Below, in pieces: positions 13,302-19,242 of a stretch of 64,000 nucleotides of DNA. The DNA lies in the NCBI GenBank assembly GCA_017513195.1, contig JAFXGM010000038.1, positions 43,400-107,399 of the forward strand, given 5' to 3'. The translations under genes were made by a program, and so were the position numbers. This DNA comes from Clostridia bacterium (lineage in GTDB: Bacteria > Bacillota > Clostridia > Oscillospirales > Acutalibacteraceae). How positions within the stretch are numbered: the stretch's first letter is position 1; each line of letters begins with the position of its first letter. The notes below the pieces were generated by a model. It saw only the letters and a list, made by a program, of their open reading frames with translations, was not told the origin of the DNA and ran no database searches.

Positions 13302-13766
13302 TTATTTGTATTGAAAATTTTTGTTTTTACACAAATCGTTTTTATATTTTTTGATATAATATTTTGCCATGTTTAGATTTTGCTCGGAATAATTTCCACA
13401 CTCAACGGGTGAAGCGCCTGGGATATCTCCTGCAAAATTTATAACAAAATCACACATATTAATGACAAGGTCGTATACATCTTGCGAAGTTAAATCGCCA
13501 AACATTACAAGGTAGCAGCCCGTGCGGCAGCCCATAGGTCCAAAATAGACAACATCGTCTTTTTGATCACTATTACGCAAAAATGTTGCGCACAAATGCT
13601 CTATTGTGTGAAGCGCGGGCACATCTATTACAGGCTCGCGATTAGGCGCGGTTATGCGCAGGTCAAAGGTAGTTACTACACAATCGCCCTTTTTATCGCG
13701 TCGCGAAACGTAAAGCCCCGATTCGAGTGTCAAGTGATTTATTTTAAAGCTTTCAATTTTATTCAT
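13302..13766 (-). CDS. luxS: S-ribosylhomocysteine lyase (autoinducer-2 synthase)
   Basis: The 154-residue enzyme cleaves S-ribosylhomocysteine to homocysteine and the AI-2 precursor DPD. Metal ligands are visible as HTIEH (His53, His57) and Cys123 in ECGNYSEQN; the catalytic cysteine is Cys84 in CRTGC. The length fits the family. Its ATG overlaps the nadE end (ATGAATAA), so it is translated from the nadE transcript. No pfs or metabolic partner is adjacent. Cytoplasmic. Confidence 0.96.
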   Translation of the reverse strand: MNKIESFKINHLTLESGLYVSRRDKKGDCVVTTFDLRITAPNREPVIDVPALHTIEHLCATFLRNSDQKDDVVYFGPMGCRTGCYLVMFGDLTSQDVYDLVINMCDFVINFAGDIPGASPVECGNYSEQNLNMAKYYIKKYKNDLCKNKNFQYK

Positions 13767-14499
13767 ACTTTATCTCCGGTTTAAAAGTGGGCATAAGCTG
13801 TAGCTTAAAAAGATTTAACTTGTGCTTGCGGTCAATTAGCTCTTTTTTAGCCATATCGTCAATTTCACCTGTGCGAATATAGCGGTCAAGCTCGGCATAG
13901 GTAAAGCCCAAATTTTCCTCATCGGTCTTACCGCAAAGGCCGTCAATCGGTACCTTGTCAACCAACACATCCGGCAGGCCTAATACACGTCCGATTTCCT
14001 TAACCTCGGTAACGGTTAGGTTTGCCATTGGTGAAAAGTCACCTGCTGCATCGCCGTAGCGTGTGGAGTAACCAACCCAATCCTCTGATAAATTACAGGT
14101 GTTAACAACGCGTCCGTTTACCGATTGACTAACGGCGTATAACACCGACATTCTGATACGTGGCGGCAAATTAACACGCGATTGCACCGATACGTTAAGG
14201 TTTTCGGGCATATTTTTAAGCACGCCCTCAATGGCATCCTTGATGTTTATTTCGTAATGCTTGATGCCAAGGTGGTTTACAAGCAAATACGCCATATCAA
14301 TATCGTGCTGCTCGCCCTGCGGCATAAGCACGCCGATAACTCGGTCGGCACCTAAAGCCTCTACGCAAAGTGCCGCCGCTACCGAGCTGTCCTTACCGCC
14401 CGATATACCAACAACCGCGTTACAGCCTTGGCCGTTTTGTTCAAAAAAATCTTTAATCCACTCTACACATTCGTTTTTAATTTTTTGTGCATCAAACAT
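13759..14499 (-). CDS. nadE: NH3-dependent NAD+ synthetase
   Basis: The start ATG at 14497-14499 follows AAAGGCGGTGG, giving 246 residues. The enzyme amidates deamido-NAD to NAD using ATP. The PP-loop SGGKDSS is at residues 33-39 and the substrate region NLSEDWVGYSTRYGDAAGDF is conserved. There is no N-terminal glutaminase domain, so it uses ammonia. A promoter (14522-14550) lies just upstream, separate from the RNA unit at 14645-15058. luxS follows in the same operon. Confidence 0.95.
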   Translation of the reverse strand: MFDAQKIKNECVEWIKDFFEQNGQGCNAVVGISGGKDSSVAAALCVEALGADRVIGVLMPQGEQHDIDMAYLLVNHLGIKHYEINIKDAIEGVLKNMPENLNVSVQSRVNLPPRIRMSVLYAVSQSVNGRVVNTCNLSEDWVGYSTRYGDAAGDFSPMANLTVTEVKEIGRVLGLPDVLVDKVPIDGLCGKTDEENLGFTYAELDRYIRTGEIDDMAKKELIDRKHKLNLFKLQLMPTFKPEIKYE

Positions 14500-14521
14500 T
14501 TTGCCACCGCCTTTTAAAGAT

Positions 14522-14550
14522 ATTATATAAAAGATTGGCGTAATTTTCAA
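14522..14550 (-). promoter_or_regulatory. Promoter of nadE-luxS
   Basis: On the minus strand TTGAAA (14545-14550), 17 bases, TATAAT (14522-14527). It lies downstream of the terminator at 14562-14588, so nadE does not need the upstream RNA promoter. Confidence 0.7.
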
Positions 14551-14561
14551 GAAAAATACAA

Positions 14562-14588
14562 ACAAAAAAAGTTGCCGCTATTGGCAAC
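14562..14588 (-). terminator. Intrinsic terminator upstream of nadE
   Basis: Read on the minus strand, AGTTGCC-aatagc-GGCAACT is followed by TTTTTTTG. It forms a second stop after the RNA terminator at 14655-14704, insulating nadE from upstream transcription. Confidence 0.7.
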
Positions 14589-14644: not shown

Positions 14645-15058
14645 AAAAACAAAATAGCTCTTGACCGACCGTTTCTTTACACGGTTTTTATCGGTCAAGA
14701 GCTATTTTTGTTCACTCTTGATATCTAACATCTTTTTGTTGTACCTCTACTTTCTTTAATTTGTCCTAAAGCTTACGTTCCTACAATTTCCTCTAATTAG
14801 CATTTTTATAAATTTTGCTACTCTCGTAAAGCGAGCTTCTCTTGAGGACTGAATTTTTTTGCTTTGGACATTCGCTATATAAAACTCTTACATTTTAACC
14901 GATTAAAAGGCGATTTATCTAAAATTTACACTTTACTATTTATATTCAATTTTTGGAGTTTCAAACTTTTTTGTTCTTTTTAACTTTTGCCTTTTATAAC
15001 AGTTAAACTTTAAGAGTATCTAACCGGAACATCGAGCTTTTTGTTCTCTTGTTCCGTG
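14645..15058 (-). ncRNA. Candidate large structured RNA, about 410 nt
   Basis: A good promoter precedes it and a strong terminator ends it; no ORF fills it. Complementary pairs visible by eye, in order: a 5' hairpin CGGAACA/UGUUCCG; a long rod of ACUCUUA/UAAGAGU, UUUAACUG/CGGUUAAA (8 bp with one G-U) and AAAAGGC/GCCUUUU closing an A-rich apical part; then UGUCC-AAAGC/GCUUU-A-GGACA (10 bp, one bulged A) closing a second domain that contains UCCUC/GAGGA and two hairpins, CUCGcuuuaCGAG and UAGCA...UGCUA. The 3' end AUCAAGAG could pair with the terminator arm CUCUUG as an antiterminator. It lies in a region without genes between nadE and the secreted nuclease. It is shorter than usual OLE, ROOL or GOLLD RNAs, and I recognise no known family. 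Confidence 0.68.
14655..14709. terminator. Strong terminator of the large RNA
   Basis: The arms TAGCTCTTGACCGA (14655-14668) and TCGGTCAAGAGCTA (14691-14704) are perfectly complementary over 14 bp, with a small inner hairpin (CCGT...ACGG). T-rich tracts lie on both sides (minus: TTTTGTTTTTT; plus: TTTTTG). Confidence 0.85.
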
Positions 15059-15063
15059 TCTTA

Positions 15064-15092
15064 AATATAACATATTTAAAGCCTTCGTTCAA
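15064..15092 (-). promoter_or_regulatory. Promoter of the large RNA
   Basis: Minus strand -35 TTGAAC (15087-15092), 17-base spacer, -10 TATATT (15064-15069). The expected start is near 15057-15060, directly before the first hairpin. Confidence 0.7.
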
Positions 15093-15166
15093 TTCGCATA
15101 TTTTATAAAATTAAAAGTCGCAAATTATGCTAAACAGAGAAATTATTTCTGCACAACAAAAAACTA

Positions 15167-15292
15167 TTGACGGCGGCATAAAATATATGTTAAAATAATT
15201 TTGTTGATTGTTTTGTTTGTTGGGAAGGGGCTTGTTCCTTCCGTTTTTTTGTTTATTTTGTATGGTAGGACTTAAATGTCCTGCCGTTTTTT
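15167..15292 (+). ncRNA. Possible short transcription unit with two tandem terminators
   Basis: The promoter is TTGACG (15167-15172), 17-18 bases, TTAAAAT (15190-15196). Only ~25 bases beyond the expected start is hairpin GGAAGG...CCTTCC with a T7 run (15222-15250), then a second, GGTAGGAC-ttaaat-GTCCTGCC with T6 (15264-15292). Any RNA would be about 48 or 90 nt. There is no coding potential. It may be an sRNA or simply insulation before the nuclease gene, which has its own promoter. Confidence 0.35.
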
Positions 15293-15361: not shown

Positions 15362-15399
15362 AAGTTATGAATTTTTATTTCAAACAGGGGGATGTCAAA

Positions 15400-18300
15400 A
15401 TGAAAATTACAATGAAAAAATCCTTAGCTGTAATTTTGTCACTTGTAATGTGCGTAAGCATGTTGTTCGGGCTTAGTTTTTCAGCACAGGCAGCGGTAGA
15501 CGTTACCTATGTATCAGAGAACGGTTATGTATATAACTGGGGTACACGTGGTACTGTTGCAACATCGTTATCTCCAATGGCAGAGTCTTTTTATGCTAGT
15601 AGTGGAGTAGCGTATTCCGAACTTAAAGAAATCGCAGGTGACAGTAACCAAAATACTGTTTCCGAAAGCGCACTTTTTGAAGAATTGTACGACATAATGT
15701 CATCAAAACATAAAAACTTAACTACCTACGATGGTACACGAACATTGTACAAGTATACCGAATGCGAAAACAGTAACAAAACTCAGCTTTCTTTGTTCTA
15801 TTCTGGTGAAACTGTTTCGTCTACTTGGGATGCTGGCGAAACATATAATCGCGAACACACTTGGCCAAAAAGCAAGAGTACTTCAGGTAAGGTTGGTACG
15901 CGCGCATCTGATATAACCATGCTTAGAGCAACCAACCCAAATAACAACTCCCAACGAGGCAACACACCGTATGGCGAAAGCTCCGGATACATTAACCCTT
16001 ACACTTATAATTTTAAACTTCCCAACGAAAACGGTTACGACGTACGTGGTGACGTAGCACGTAATATTCTTTATGTTTACGTGCGTTGGGGTGCCGATCC
16101 AACATATCACGACGGCGCACTAGATAATATGTGGGGTAAAGATGGCGTAATGGAAAGCAAAGAAGTTTTGCTTTCTTGGATGGCGGCCGACCCGGTAGAC
16201 ACATGGGAAATGGGTCGTAACGACTCTACCCAATCCATTACCGGAACTCGTAATATTTTTATAGACTACCCAGAACTTGCTTTTGAATTATTTGAAACTT
16301 CTGCTCCTAGCGACTATAATACACCTTCCGGAGGCAACGACATTGAAGGCGGAACAACCGGCGGAGATAGCGGTAGCACTCCTGACGATGACGACAACAC
16401 CGGTAGCGAAACTCCCGATACCCCAACAGATACAGTTGACCATTATATTAAAGTTACTACAGAGCCTGAGGATTGGTCAGGCAGATATCTTATTGTTTAT
16501 GAAGATGGCAATATTGCTTTTGACGGAAGCGAAACAACACAATCCGCTCTAGATACCGCAGGAAACAGCGTTGACGTAACTATCAACAAAAATACTGGTA
16601 TTATTGACGCAAGCAATGCCGATGTTGCACTATCGTTAAGTAAATCGGAATTTATTATCGCTAAAACCGAAACTAATTATACTGTGAAAACAGCAAGCGG
16701 TTTGTATATTGGTAGAGACGCCAATAGCAACGGATTAAATGCAAATAAATCCACTCAATATACCAATACACTTTCTTTAAATAGCGACGGCAGTGTTAAT
16801 ATAATTGGAAAAGGTGGGGCATATTTTCGATATAATCTTTCTGCTAAAATGTTCCGATACTATAAATCCTCCTCTTATAATAGTCAAAAACCAATAGCTC
16901 TTTATAAGTTTGTAAAGGGTGCTGCTGCCACAAGTTATACTATAACCGCTTCATCAAACAATACTTCTTGGGGTGAAGTTACAGTTAACGGTGACACAAT
17001 TAATGCAGTTCCAAAATCGGGTTATGAAGTTTTAGACTATACCGTTTTAAGCGGCACAGTTACCGGCGTTACACAAAATGGAGATTCATTTAAAATTTCT
17101 GCTACAAGCGATGCCGAAATTCAAATTAACTTTGTTAAGCGTGAAACAAGCGAAATTACCTTCTACCAACACGGTGGCGTTGTTGCAGGAACCGATAGCG
17201 AATATACCGGTGATGAGGCAATCTTACCTGAACACATCGGTGCCGTACCACAAGGTTGGTCTTTTGTGGGCTGGGTAGAAAATAGTATAAACGAAACTAC
17301 AACTAGACCTACCTTCTATTCCTCTGGAGACGAATATACAGTAGACGAAGACACTGCACTTTATGCGCTTTATTGTCGTAGTGAAGAAGATGCTGGTGGA
17401 GGCTCGGCAAACGATAATGTTTTTGAACTTTATAGCGGCGATATCACCGAGGGAGATTATATAATCGTTTACGACAACTCTGCAATGAATACCTCGTATA
17501 ACAACAACGTTCGCTTAAACTACACAGATGTAATTATTAACGACAACACCATCACCACAGATGATGAGACCATAATTTGGCACATCGCTCCTGTTGACGA
17601 CAATCTTTGGACTCTTTATAACGAAGCTGCTGCAAGTTATGCTGCGGGCACTGGTACTAAAAATCAAGCTACTTTGATCGGCGAAATTACCGACTTTGCT
17701 AAATGGAAAGCAACCGGAACCTATGAATTTGTAAATTTGGGCAACGAAAACAAGGGTGTTAACAAAACCTTGCGTCGTAATGGCTCGTTTGGTTTTGCTT
17801 GTTACGCAACCACAACCGGAGGTGCTTTAAGTCTTTATAAGCGCTCTGAATCAGGCATTTCAACTATTTATTACTATTTCACGGATGGCGAAACAGCTTC
17901 TGATACCGAAACGGACGGATATTATATAAAGGTGACCGAAGAACCGACTGATTGGACTGGCGACTATCTTATCGTAGCTACCGATAAATCCGAGGAAAAT
18001 GTAGTATTTGATGGTAGTAGGAAAGGTGATAGCCTCGATGTAGGTAACAACGTTATCACCAACGTAGTTGTTAATGGCGATATCATAAAAGCCTCCGCCG
18101 TTTTGAAGGCGGCACAGTTTACTGTTGCCGCATCCGACGAAAGTTATAGCATTAAATCTGCTAGTGGTTATTATATTGGCAACAGCAAAGACGAAAACGA
18201 TCTAGAAACAAACGCTTCTACAAGTTTTGCTAATACTTTTTCACTTAACGATGATAACACCGTTAACATTATTGGTAGTGGTGGTGCTTATTTGCGTTTT

Positions 18301-19242
18301 AATTCAAATAGCGGCATAGATAATTATCGTTTCCGTTATTACAAATCAACCTCTTACACCAATCAAACCCCTATAACTCTTTACAAATATGTACCTTTTA
18401 ATTCTGAGATAGTTGCGGCGCAAATAGAGATTAGCGCAGACCTGTCTGTTAACTACTACGTGTCGCTTGAAAACGAAGAATTAATAGATGTTAATGATAT
18501 GTCAATGCGATACACCATTGACGAAGATGTATTTACAACCGATATTTTCACCAAGATGGATGAAAATTATGTTTTTGTTTTTAATGGTATTGCGCCCCAG
18601 CGCATGACCGATAATATTAAGGCTGAATTGTTGTTAAATGGTGACGTGCTTGAAGTTTTGGAAAATTATAGTGTTCAAACCAATGCAAAAAATCTATTGG
18701 AAAAATATCCTGAAAACGCAACGCTTAAAACCTTTATTGCAGATATGTTATATTACGGTGCAGCTGCACAGACTTATGCAAATTACAAAACCGACACTCT
18801 AGCTACCGATGGCTTAGACCTATCGTTCTCTGAAGCAACACCAGAAGAATTATATGCAAACATATCTGAAAGCACCGGTTCTTCAAGCTTTAGATCTGCT
18901 ACAGTTTGGTTTGATTCTACCAATAGTCTTATTGTAAAGGTAAGAGAACGCACCGAAAACACAAAGGTTACTGTAACGGTTAACGGTAATACAGTTCCTC
19001 TTGAGTACAACGATACCATTGACGGTTATAAAACACCTGATATTTTAGCTACAGATTTTGGCACAACCTACACGTTTAAGCTTTATGAAGGCGATACAGC
19101 CGTTCAGACGCTTGTTTACAGCGTTAACACCTATGCATATTCTAAATACACCACTGGTAAAACCCAGAGTATGAAAGACCTTGCATTGGCGCTTTACCGC
19201 TATGGTGTTTCGGCTAAAGCTTATTACGACAGCATATCTTAA
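15400..19242 (+). CDS. Very large secreted endonuclease I-family protein
   Basis: With ATG 15400 (behind GGGGGATG) the product has 1280 residues. A signal peptide covers ~1-33, ending SFSAQA. Residues ~40-295 match the endonuclease I / EndA family of non-specific extracellular nucleases (NREHTWPKS, with the catalytic His, and ITMLRATNPNNNSQRGN). An acidic Gly/Thr/Asp linker follows. Two copies of a ~160-residue module (YIKVT-EP-DWSG-YLIV ... YIG ... FRYYKS) and a shorter relative near residue 680 flank an InlB/Listeria-type repeat-like region (ITFYQHGG...FVGWVEN). The C-terminus (LKTFIADMLYYGAAAQTYANY and ALALYRYGVSAKAYYDSIS) resembles C-terminal modules of other Oscillospirales surface proteins. 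Extracellular DNA degradation for nutrients is inferred. Confidence 0.85.
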   Translation: MKITMKKSLAVILSLVMCVSMLFGLSFSAQAAVDVTYVSENGYVYNWGTRGTVATSLSPMAESFYASSGVAYSELKEIAGDSNQNTVSESALFEELYDIMSSKHKNLTTYDGTRTLYKYTECENSNKTQLSLFYSGETVSSTWDAGETYNREHTWPKSKSTSGKVGTRASDITMLRATNPNNNSQRGNTPYGESSGYINPYTYNFKLPNENGYDVRGDVARNILYVYVRWGADPTYHDGALDNMWGKDGVMESKEVLLSWMAADPVDTWEMGRNDSTQSITGTRNIFIDYPELAFELFETSAPSDYNTPSGGNDIEGGTTGGDSGSTPDDDDNTGSETPDTPTDTVDHYIKVTTEPEDWSGRYLIVYEDGNIAFDGSETTQSALDTAGNSVDVTINKNTGIIDASNADVALSLSKSEFIIAKTETNYTVKTASGLYIGRDANSNGLNANKSTQYTNTLSLNSDGSVNIIGKGGAYFRYNLSAKMFRYYKSSSYNSQKPIALYKFVKGAAATSYTITASSNNTSWGEVTVNGDTINAVPKSGYEVLDYTVLSGTVTGVTQNGDSFKISATSDAEIQINFVKRETSEITFYQHGGVVAGTDSEYTGDEAILPEHIGAVPQGWSFVGWVENSINETTTRPTFYSSGDEYTVDEDTALYALYCRSEEDAGGGSANDNVFELYSGDITEGDYIIVYDNSAMNTSYNNNVRLNYTDVIINDNTITTDDETIIWHIAPVDDNLWTLYNEAAASYAAGTGTKNQATLIGEITDFAKWKATGTYEFVNLGNENKGVNKTLRRNGSFGFACYATTTGGALSLYKRSESGISTIYYYFTDGETASDTETDGYYIKVTEEPTDWTGDYLIVATDKSEENVVFDGSRKGDSLDVGNNVITNVVVNGDIIKASAVLKAAQFTVAASDESYSIKSASGYYIGNSKDENDLETNASTSFANTFSLNDDNTVNIIGSGGAYLRFNSNSGIDNYRFRYYKSTSYTNQTPITLYKYVPFNSEIVAAQIEISADLSVNYYVSLENEELIDVNDMSMRYTIDEDVFTTDIFTKMDENYVFVFNGIAPQRMTDNIKAELLLNGDVLEVLENYSVQTNAKNLLEKYPENATLKTFIADMLYYGAAAQTYANYKTDTLATDGLDLSFSEATPEELYANISESTGSSSFRSATVWFDSTNSLIVKVRERTENTKVTVTVNGNTVPLEYNDTIDGYKTPDILATDFGTTYTFKLYEGDTAVQTLVYSVNTYAYSKYTTGKTQSMKDLALALYRYGVSAKAYYDSIS

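Follow-up and report, generated by a model that had tools for sequence, protein, structure and literature searches.

Locus organisation

The window (the whole 64,000-nucleotide stretch of DNA that was analysed) carries on its minus strand, at 14645-15058, a predicted transcript of about 414 nt that is delimited by a promoter and a terminator and is backed by its fold (z −7.5) and by full-length relatives. The promoter (15064-15092, minus strand), recognised by consensus match, has the −35 box TTGAAC, a spacer of 17 nt and an extended −10 box TG-n-TATATT; the spacer is 17 in 94 of the 97 relatives scored, in a search that slightly favoured this length. The intrinsic terminator (14645-14709, minus strand) consists of a hairpin at about 14709-14651 followed by U-rich sequence, and the stop codon of a short reading frame, ORF2, lies inside its 5′ arm. 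With promoter, fold, terminator and relatives in place, the preliminary description of an independent structured RNA gene, with a 17-base promoter spacer and a terminator of its own, is borne out. The same description called this a region without ORFs. No ORF of 60 or more residues covers it, yet 14731-14702 is a conserved nine-codon ORF behind a strong Shine-Dalgarno sequence. This 3′ micro-ORF was overlooked, as were the three-codon ORF at the 5′ end of the relatives and a divergent promoter-terminator unit. In view of these elements, the RNA is probably not purely noncoding. An antiterminator had also been suggested, with UCAAGAG in ORF2 pairing with CUCUUGA in the terminator; the complementarity is perfect in the window but is broken by CCCUUG in many relatives, and so the element is not conserved.

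Downstream on the same strand is nadE (NAD synthase, 13302-14565), with luxS directly downstream of it. A promoter-like site for nadE at 14550-14522 agrees with the consensus at 11 of 12 positions, and an extra terminator-like site at 14589-14570 separates the RNA from nadE (both consensus matches only), as had been proposed. For 124 places with enough flanking sequence, crude ORF calls put the first ORF downstream on the strand of the RNA in 56 and in convergent orientation in 65, and find none in 3. The random orientation points to a stand-alone gene and, taken with the nadE promoter, agrees with the earlier view that this is no simple nadE leader. The conserved same-strand downstream gene expected of a leader-peptide attenuator was not found, the most frequent neighbour protein family being shared by at most 8 of 144 loci (crude ORF caller). 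A nadE leader or attenuator was rejected on the grounds of the nadE promoter, the extra terminator, the random orientation and the lack of a common neighbour.

The segment 14586-14642, between the RNA terminator and nadE, is a G+C-rich dispersed repeat with inverted arms; similar copies occur at many sites in genomes of the genus and in at least one other genome of the order. Directly beyond the divergent unit, on the plus strand, 15367-19242 encodes a protein of 1291 residues whose N-terminus resembles a signal sequence and which contains an Endonuclease I domain (PF04231).

Comparison with known RNA families

Scanning the whole window with the Rfam 15 covariance models gave nothing above the gathering threshold except one tRNA elsewhere in the window. 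With permissive filters the RNA region gave eight chance-level matches (E 1.9-9.4), all far below gathering, and at the loci of 20 relatives only tRNAs and one T-box reached gathering, none of them over the RNA. The comparison covers OLE, ROOL, GOLLD, tmRNA, RNase P and raiA as far as the library contains them. Membership of an Rfam family was rejected on these scores, and the preliminary statement that no known family is recognisable still stands. A search of the window with ARAGORN for tmRNA, with its tRNA-like ends and tag ORF, found a tRNA-Pro only. The exact peptide MLDIKSEQK encoded by ORF2 gave no match in a literature search of 5.39 million papers, and other literature searches returned nothing recognised as this element, as judged from titles, the openings of abstracts and some passages. 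The RNA belongs to a family of stand-alone genes in gut Clostridia that is apparently undescribed.

Fold of the RNA body

The main RNA has a minimum free energy of −100.3 kcal/mol, while shuffled sequences average −65.5 (z −7.5), and none of 100 shuffles is as stable; these values include the strong terminator. Fold prediction and arm-swap tests identify two domains on the minus strand: domain 1 (14884-15017), a three-part rod closed by ACUCUUA/UAAGAGU, and domain 2 (14762-14877), with a long closing helix. Domain 2 contains a hairpin, CUCG-CUUUA-CGAG (14823-14835, minus strand), that is conserved in the A4 alignment.

From a MAFFT alignment of the 14 full-length RNAs, RNAalifold retrieved 25 pairs, which make up the terminator and two short hairpins and nothing else. 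The bodies align badly, which explains this low yield, and the arm-swap test was used instead on 13 of the 14 RNAs (L041 omitted), with domain 1 arms recognised in nine. In domain 1 (9 RNAs) an RNA's own arms pair at −16.8 kcal/mol compared to −9.3 for swapped arms; in domain 2 (13 RNAs) the values are −9.5 and −6.4. The criterion was the observed sum, which none of 20000 permutations reached in either domain. Not every RNA beats all of its swaps, and those that do not were kept in the count: L040 in domain 1 (one of eight swaps is as good) and L033, L034, L036, L038 and L040 in domain 2, where L039, L051 and L100, whose arms are clearly misplaced, were also retained. The tests in relatives thus support the three-part rod and the closing helix of the second domain that had been proposed from the window. 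Compensatory arm changes are visible by eye: where the window has UUUAAC/GUUAAA, for example, L031 has UUAAUC/GAUUAA.

Across the families, 92 bodies of 109-410 nt have a mean z of −2.42, and 54% of them fall under −2. Of 97 bodies, 24 have a hairpin with a CUU(U)A loop, compared to 1 of 97 shuffled ones. Two loci that carry two copies each allow a part-by-part comparison. The L129 copies share 88% from promoter to ORF1, 46% in the body and 85% from the ORF2 Shine-Dalgarno sequence to the terminator; the corresponding figures for L188 are 49%, 39% and 96%. The 3′ block is thus constant and the body variable, while the 5′ part is constant in one pair only. On these comparisons we regard the body as fast-evolving but truly folded.

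Two ORF2-terminator blocks on the same strand were seen at L188, G114:C52, G330:C15, G405:C70, G391:C5 and G196:C43, at spacings from a few hundred bases to 7.6 kb; the part-by-part comparison above concerns L188 and L129. Within the genus the GCUUUAC hairpin could well form a kissing contact with the terminator loop GUGUAAAGAAAC; this candidate was rejected, the loop varying widely elsewhere.

The 3′ micro-ORF

In an alignment of eight homologues the best-conserved part is no helix but GAGGTACAACAAAAAGATGTTAGATATCAAGAGTGAACAAAAATAR, just 5′ of the terminator, which reads as a Shine-Dalgarno sequence, then ATG and MLDIKSEQK, then a stop. In the window the Shine-Dalgarno sequence AGAAAGUAGAGGU lies at 14743-14755 and ORF2 (ATG TTA GAT ATC AAG AGT GAA CAA AAA TAG, MLDIKSEQK*) at 14702-14731, both on the minus strand. 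We extracted 144 sequence-distinct copies with 64 peptide variants, of which exact MLDIKSEQK accounts for 34 copies. The pattern used demands GNGG upstream and leaves little freedom in codons 1, 2, 3, 5 and 9 and the stop, so that only codons 6-8 of this set are free evidence. The coding argument consequently rests on hits of the covariance model R2 described below, itself built from pattern-picked copies. For the recount, one place was taken per locus, positioned by likeness to the consensus, with duplicates removed and the opposite-strand echoes L042-L049 excluded.

Of the 68 strong places, 67 have a start, a Shine-Dalgarno core and a frame that closes after 7-11 codons, the exception being L053, which has no stop. 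Leu-Asp is kept in 66 of the 68, L283 having Thr-Asp. The Leu codon is TTA in 55, CTA in 6, TTG in 3 and CTG in 2; the Lys codon two after Leu-Asp is AAG in 57 and AAA in 9; and the stop is TGA in 34, TAA in 20 and TAG in 12. Some lineages have one added in-frame codon (MTLD, MKLD, MRLD, MVLD), and one has a GTG start. The synonymous Leu and Lys codons and the in-frame insertions point to the amino acids as what is kept, and ORF2 looks coding by this signature. Variation in codons 4 and 6 falls mostly on the second base, which does not favour a plain peptide function. One L063 copy, which is outside the strong-place count, is frameshifted to MMLDIKSERNNS.

The 20 weak places behave differently: 15 have the Shine-Dalgarno sequence, start and stop after 7-11 codons, but only 7 have Leu-Asp. 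Peptides found there are MIEPKSFGK, MIEPIHFVK, MLEPASEMK, MSDPKETEE and MKLQIDSEQK, and L293 lacks a stop. Because the frame is kept at these places more than the peptide, the length and position of ORF2 appear to be more conserved than its letters. In the copies inspected the stop codon is at the base of the terminator arm, and MLDIKSEQK and most of its variants are hydrophilic by inspection. We note a possible second subfamily among weak hits (L289, L290, L292, L301, L304), with an ORF2 of the form M-[LI]-E-P-... and the same length, Shine-Dalgarno sequence and terminator position.

The 5′ end and ORF1

In most relatives the RNA opens with AGAAAGGGTGATACCAATGTACAGGTAA or near variants, within about 30 nt of the predicted start. 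ORF1 was recognised in 105 of the 144 copies and not in the other 39; it is exactly three codons long in 82 of the 105 and at most four in 99, the commonest form being M-Y-R (27 copies). In a test of pairing with the 16S tail, the 30 nt in front of ORF2 score a median of −13.6 kcal/mol (144 copies) and those in front of ORF1 −12.6 (105), with −9.5 for long ORFs (396) and −3.9 for random 30-mers (640), a comparison biased by the fact that both micro-ORFs were picked partly by Shine-Dalgarno-like letters, of the AGG type in the case of ORF1. Two consecutive three-codon micro-ORFs, each behind a Shine-Dalgarno-like stretch, were seen at the 5′ end of L156, L175, L207 and L062.

The window departs from this arrangement. 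By sequence and fold, a 5′ hairpin (15025-15056, minus strand) takes the place of the ORF1 Shine-Dalgarno sequence, and ORF1 itself is reduced to a putative relic, MFRLDTLKV* (15003-15032, minus strand), where relatives have M-[YFN]-[RK]-stop and similar forms. ORF1 with its Shine-Dalgarno sequence is likewise lost in L037, which has a hairpin (by eye) instead; the other members of the full-length alignment have a Shine-Dalgarno-like 5′ end.

Stem-loops and bound ribosomes near the 5′ end can serve as 5′ stabilisers in Firmicutes, STAB-SD and stem-loop elements being examples. A passage of PMC3997798 describes 5′ roadblocks that stabilise Bacillus RNA. The present RNAs resemble the elements of that passage, where a ribosome or stem-loop near the 5′ end blocks decay, but here the ribosome site is a complete three-codon ORF and the stabilisation is putative. 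For the axe-txe leader, PMC8708949 reports that a two-codon mini-ORF raises expression of the downstream gene, possibly by mRNA shielding. The likeness to that leader is an ORF of two or three codons in front of another ORF, thought to shield the mRNA; the difference is that a toxin gene follows there and a structured RNA with a micro-ORF here. From these precedents and from the replacement of ORF1 by a stem-loop, we infer that ORF1 is chiefly a 5′ guard.

The divergent unit

The stretch between the divergent −35 boxes (15093-15166) is conserved and, across 97 loci, carries motifs at fixed positions; these probably serve as operators and resemble TTTTGTACAAA in the relatives. In L031-L078, palindrome-like TTTTGTACAAA/TTTTGCATAAA sites that lie 5′ of the main promoter are candidate operators. 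On the plus strand follow a divergent promoter recognised by consensus match, TTGACG-18-TAAAAT (15167-15196), and a tiny predicted transcript (15203-15252, its start presumed) that consists essentially of a terminator hairpin and a T-run.

Of 99 loci, 68 have a near-consensus promoter, 60-190 nt 5′ of ORF1, that faces away from the main RNA; among 99 shuffles there is none. In 64 of these 68, GTTG or GTTA occurs within 16 nt after the −10 box, and in 55 a terminator-like hairpin lies within 85 nt of it, compared to 4 of 68 control windows further out. The hairpin begins at a median of 9 nt past the −10 box; the layout at 15167-15252 is similar, with the hairpin somewhat further away. The divergent promoter looks like one that drives a terminator-only transcript of about 30 nt. 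In 68 of the 75 loci in which both promoters are above the score, the gap between the −35 boxes is 64-65, 74-75 or 85-86 nt. Steps of one helical turn, with the motifs at fixed positions, suggest that one regulator governs the two promoters.

A role of the tiny RNA as antisense to the main RNA was considered and rejected, its own partner being no better than others: over the first 22 nt of 72 pairs the mean rank of the own main RNA was 0.50, and the mean pairing energies are −15.0 kcal/mol with the own main RNA and −14.4 with others.

Distribution and inheritance

Homologues had been called for as a check, and a DNA search of 60 related genomes found them. A covariance model of the 3′ block (R1) has matches in 11 of 70 genomes of the genus, where the gene is accordingly patchy, and in 43 of 295 genomes of the order. 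The broader model R2, built from 81 of the 144 copies, finds 74 of 394 order genomes and 38 of 168 genera at E 0.01, and 21 of 391 class genomes and 13 of 222 genera at E 0.001, the window's own genome being included in each tally. At E 0.001, 1 of 398 phylum genomes matches, and this is again the window's own, so the other 397 double as a specificity control for R2. Some of the weakest matching genomes are doubtful: at G046 and G350 the match is confined to the terminator half, and at G124 and G537 (L300, L308) no ORF2 was seen. Absences are soft, owing to the stricter filters used for searches of more than 40 genomes. The genome from which the window comes has a single strong place. When named genomes were scanned with a pattern, at least 116 stretches were found; among the 80 titles listed, 70 say Oscillospiraceae, Ruminococcaceae or Clostridia, and the remaining 10 carry other or broader Firmicutes names, with one unnamed bacterium.

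The exact ORF2 pattern is absent from IMG/VR viral contigs. In blastn searches, which distant copies would escape, the 171-nt 3′ block of L054 matched no phage record among 50,697 and a single plasmid record among 72,556, namely the 861-kb replicon of the cultured Vescimonas fastidiosa MM35. The empty viral and phage searches, with this single large replicon among the plasmid records, do not support a phage- or plasmid-borne element, and a phage origin was rejected. The replicon carries a complete unit (M-T-stop and MMLDIKSEG-stop) between a TetR gene and spoVAC, at a place where the PLSDB gene table, which holds no RNA genes, is empty.

Within the genus, the RNA is present in 9 of the 10 relatives that rank highest by nadE match score behind the window's own (nadE identity 85-93%). 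G062 (nadE 86%) lacks it and G071 (nadE 75%) has it. That presence tracks nadE similarity suggests that inheritance has been mainly vertical, within one subclade of the genus.

Discussion

Judged from sequence, the family combines a promoter and shared upstream region with an ORF1 of mostly three codons, a folded body and an ORF2 of 8-10 codons. Dual-function bacterial RNAs such as SgrS, RNAIII and SR1 are stand-alone and regulated, with a small ORF and an intrinsic terminator. The present RNAs resemble them as regulated stand-alone RNAs of a few hundred nucleotides with a small ORF and a terminator, but have two micro-ORFs, one of three codons at the 5′ end and one of 8-10 codons running into the terminator, as well as a hypervariable body without a match in Rfam. 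Leader-peptide attenuators of the erm and lmo0919 types have a short ORF with its stop at a terminator; that likeness is clear, but here there is no common regulated downstream gene. IstR/TisB-like pairs consist of a short RNA divergent from a small-ORF RNA, with a regulatory region in common. The divergent short RNA and common region are found here too, but the tiny RNA is not specially complementary to its neighbour and the peptide is mostly hydrophilic.

The reading that we favour, tentatively and at a little short of even confidence, is that of a regulated stand-alone micropeptide mRNA that would also act as a structured RNA (dual function). A regulator would bind the shared upstream region and switch both promoters. 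The 5′ end would be protected against decay by ribosomes loading on ORF1 and terminating soon afterwards, or by the stem-loop that stands there instead, and the body would space ORF2 or control access to it. ORF2 would then give a short cytosolic peptide as at least one functional product. Peptide drift at the weak places has lowered our confidence in this reading from an even chance. The same result made us give more weight to its main rival, a small RNA with ribosome caps, which we consider a serious if less probable possibility. Here a trans-acting structured RNA would work through its variable, species-specific body, perhaps by base-pairing with targets, while the micro-ORFs would be ribosome-loading end caps and the peptide irrelevant. 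The folding of the bodies across the families fits this, as do the two copy pairs, in which bodies shared at 46% and 39% stand against 3′ blocks shared at 85% and 96%. So do the weak places, which keep Shine-Dalgarno sequence, ORF length and stop more often than Leu-Asp (15 and 7 of 20), and the stem-loop that replaces ORF1 in the window and in L037. An irrelevant peptide would leave the strong places hard to explain, where synonymous codons preserve Leu and Lys and any extra codon is in frame; and the L188 copies, with 49% shared from promoter to ORF1, show that the 5′ end is not always constant.

The end sites could instead be the function itself, in a ribosome-sensing or -sequestering RNA whose two 16S-complementary sites titrate 30S subunits or report translation status. 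Both Shine-Dalgarno sequences are stronger than those of most long ORFs (in a selection-biased comparison) and the three-codon ORF1 would allow fast re-initiation, but ordinary strong Shine-Dalgarno sequences explain as much and conservation of the peptide would be unnecessary; we regard this as improbable. Rather less credit is due to an attenuator in which a ribosome on ORF2 opens the terminator and polymerase reads into the downstream gene, here nadE. The stop codon at the base of the terminator arm and the alternative pairing in the window speak for it, and so does the fact that 7 of 144 loci, all of them within the genus, have nadE as a same-strand gene downstream. Against it, that pairing is unconserved, nadE is served by a promoter of its own and preceded by a further terminator, the first ORF downstream is convergent in 65 of the 124 places, and beyond the genus there is no downstream gene in common. 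The least likely of all seems to be a type I toxin-antitoxin-like system in which the ORF2 peptide is the effector and the divergent tiny RNA its antisense regulator. A short RNA does adjoin a small-ORF RNA and the copies are stand-alone and sometimes repeated, but the peptide is short and mostly hydrophilic (by inspection), not of the hydrophobic toxin type, and a mean rank of 0.50 is not that of an antisense partner.

More broadly, and with slightly more reserve than for the micropeptide mRNA, we suggest that these loci may represent a new class of micro-gene, in which a helix-phased region fires an RNA of about 30 nt in one direction and, in the other, a folded RNA that has micro-ORFs at its ends and a hypervariable payload between them. 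If so, the last ORF would specify one of the shortest conserved stand-alone protein products (8-10 residues); if translated, the unit would be among the smallest conserved genes. The cassette offers a test case for how micro-ORFs guard RNA ends and for the purpose of a promoter that fires into a terminator. ORFs of three and nine codons are far below the usual sizes for ORF lists and annotation, and a unit found in nearly one-fifth of the sampled order genomes is therefore easily overlooked.
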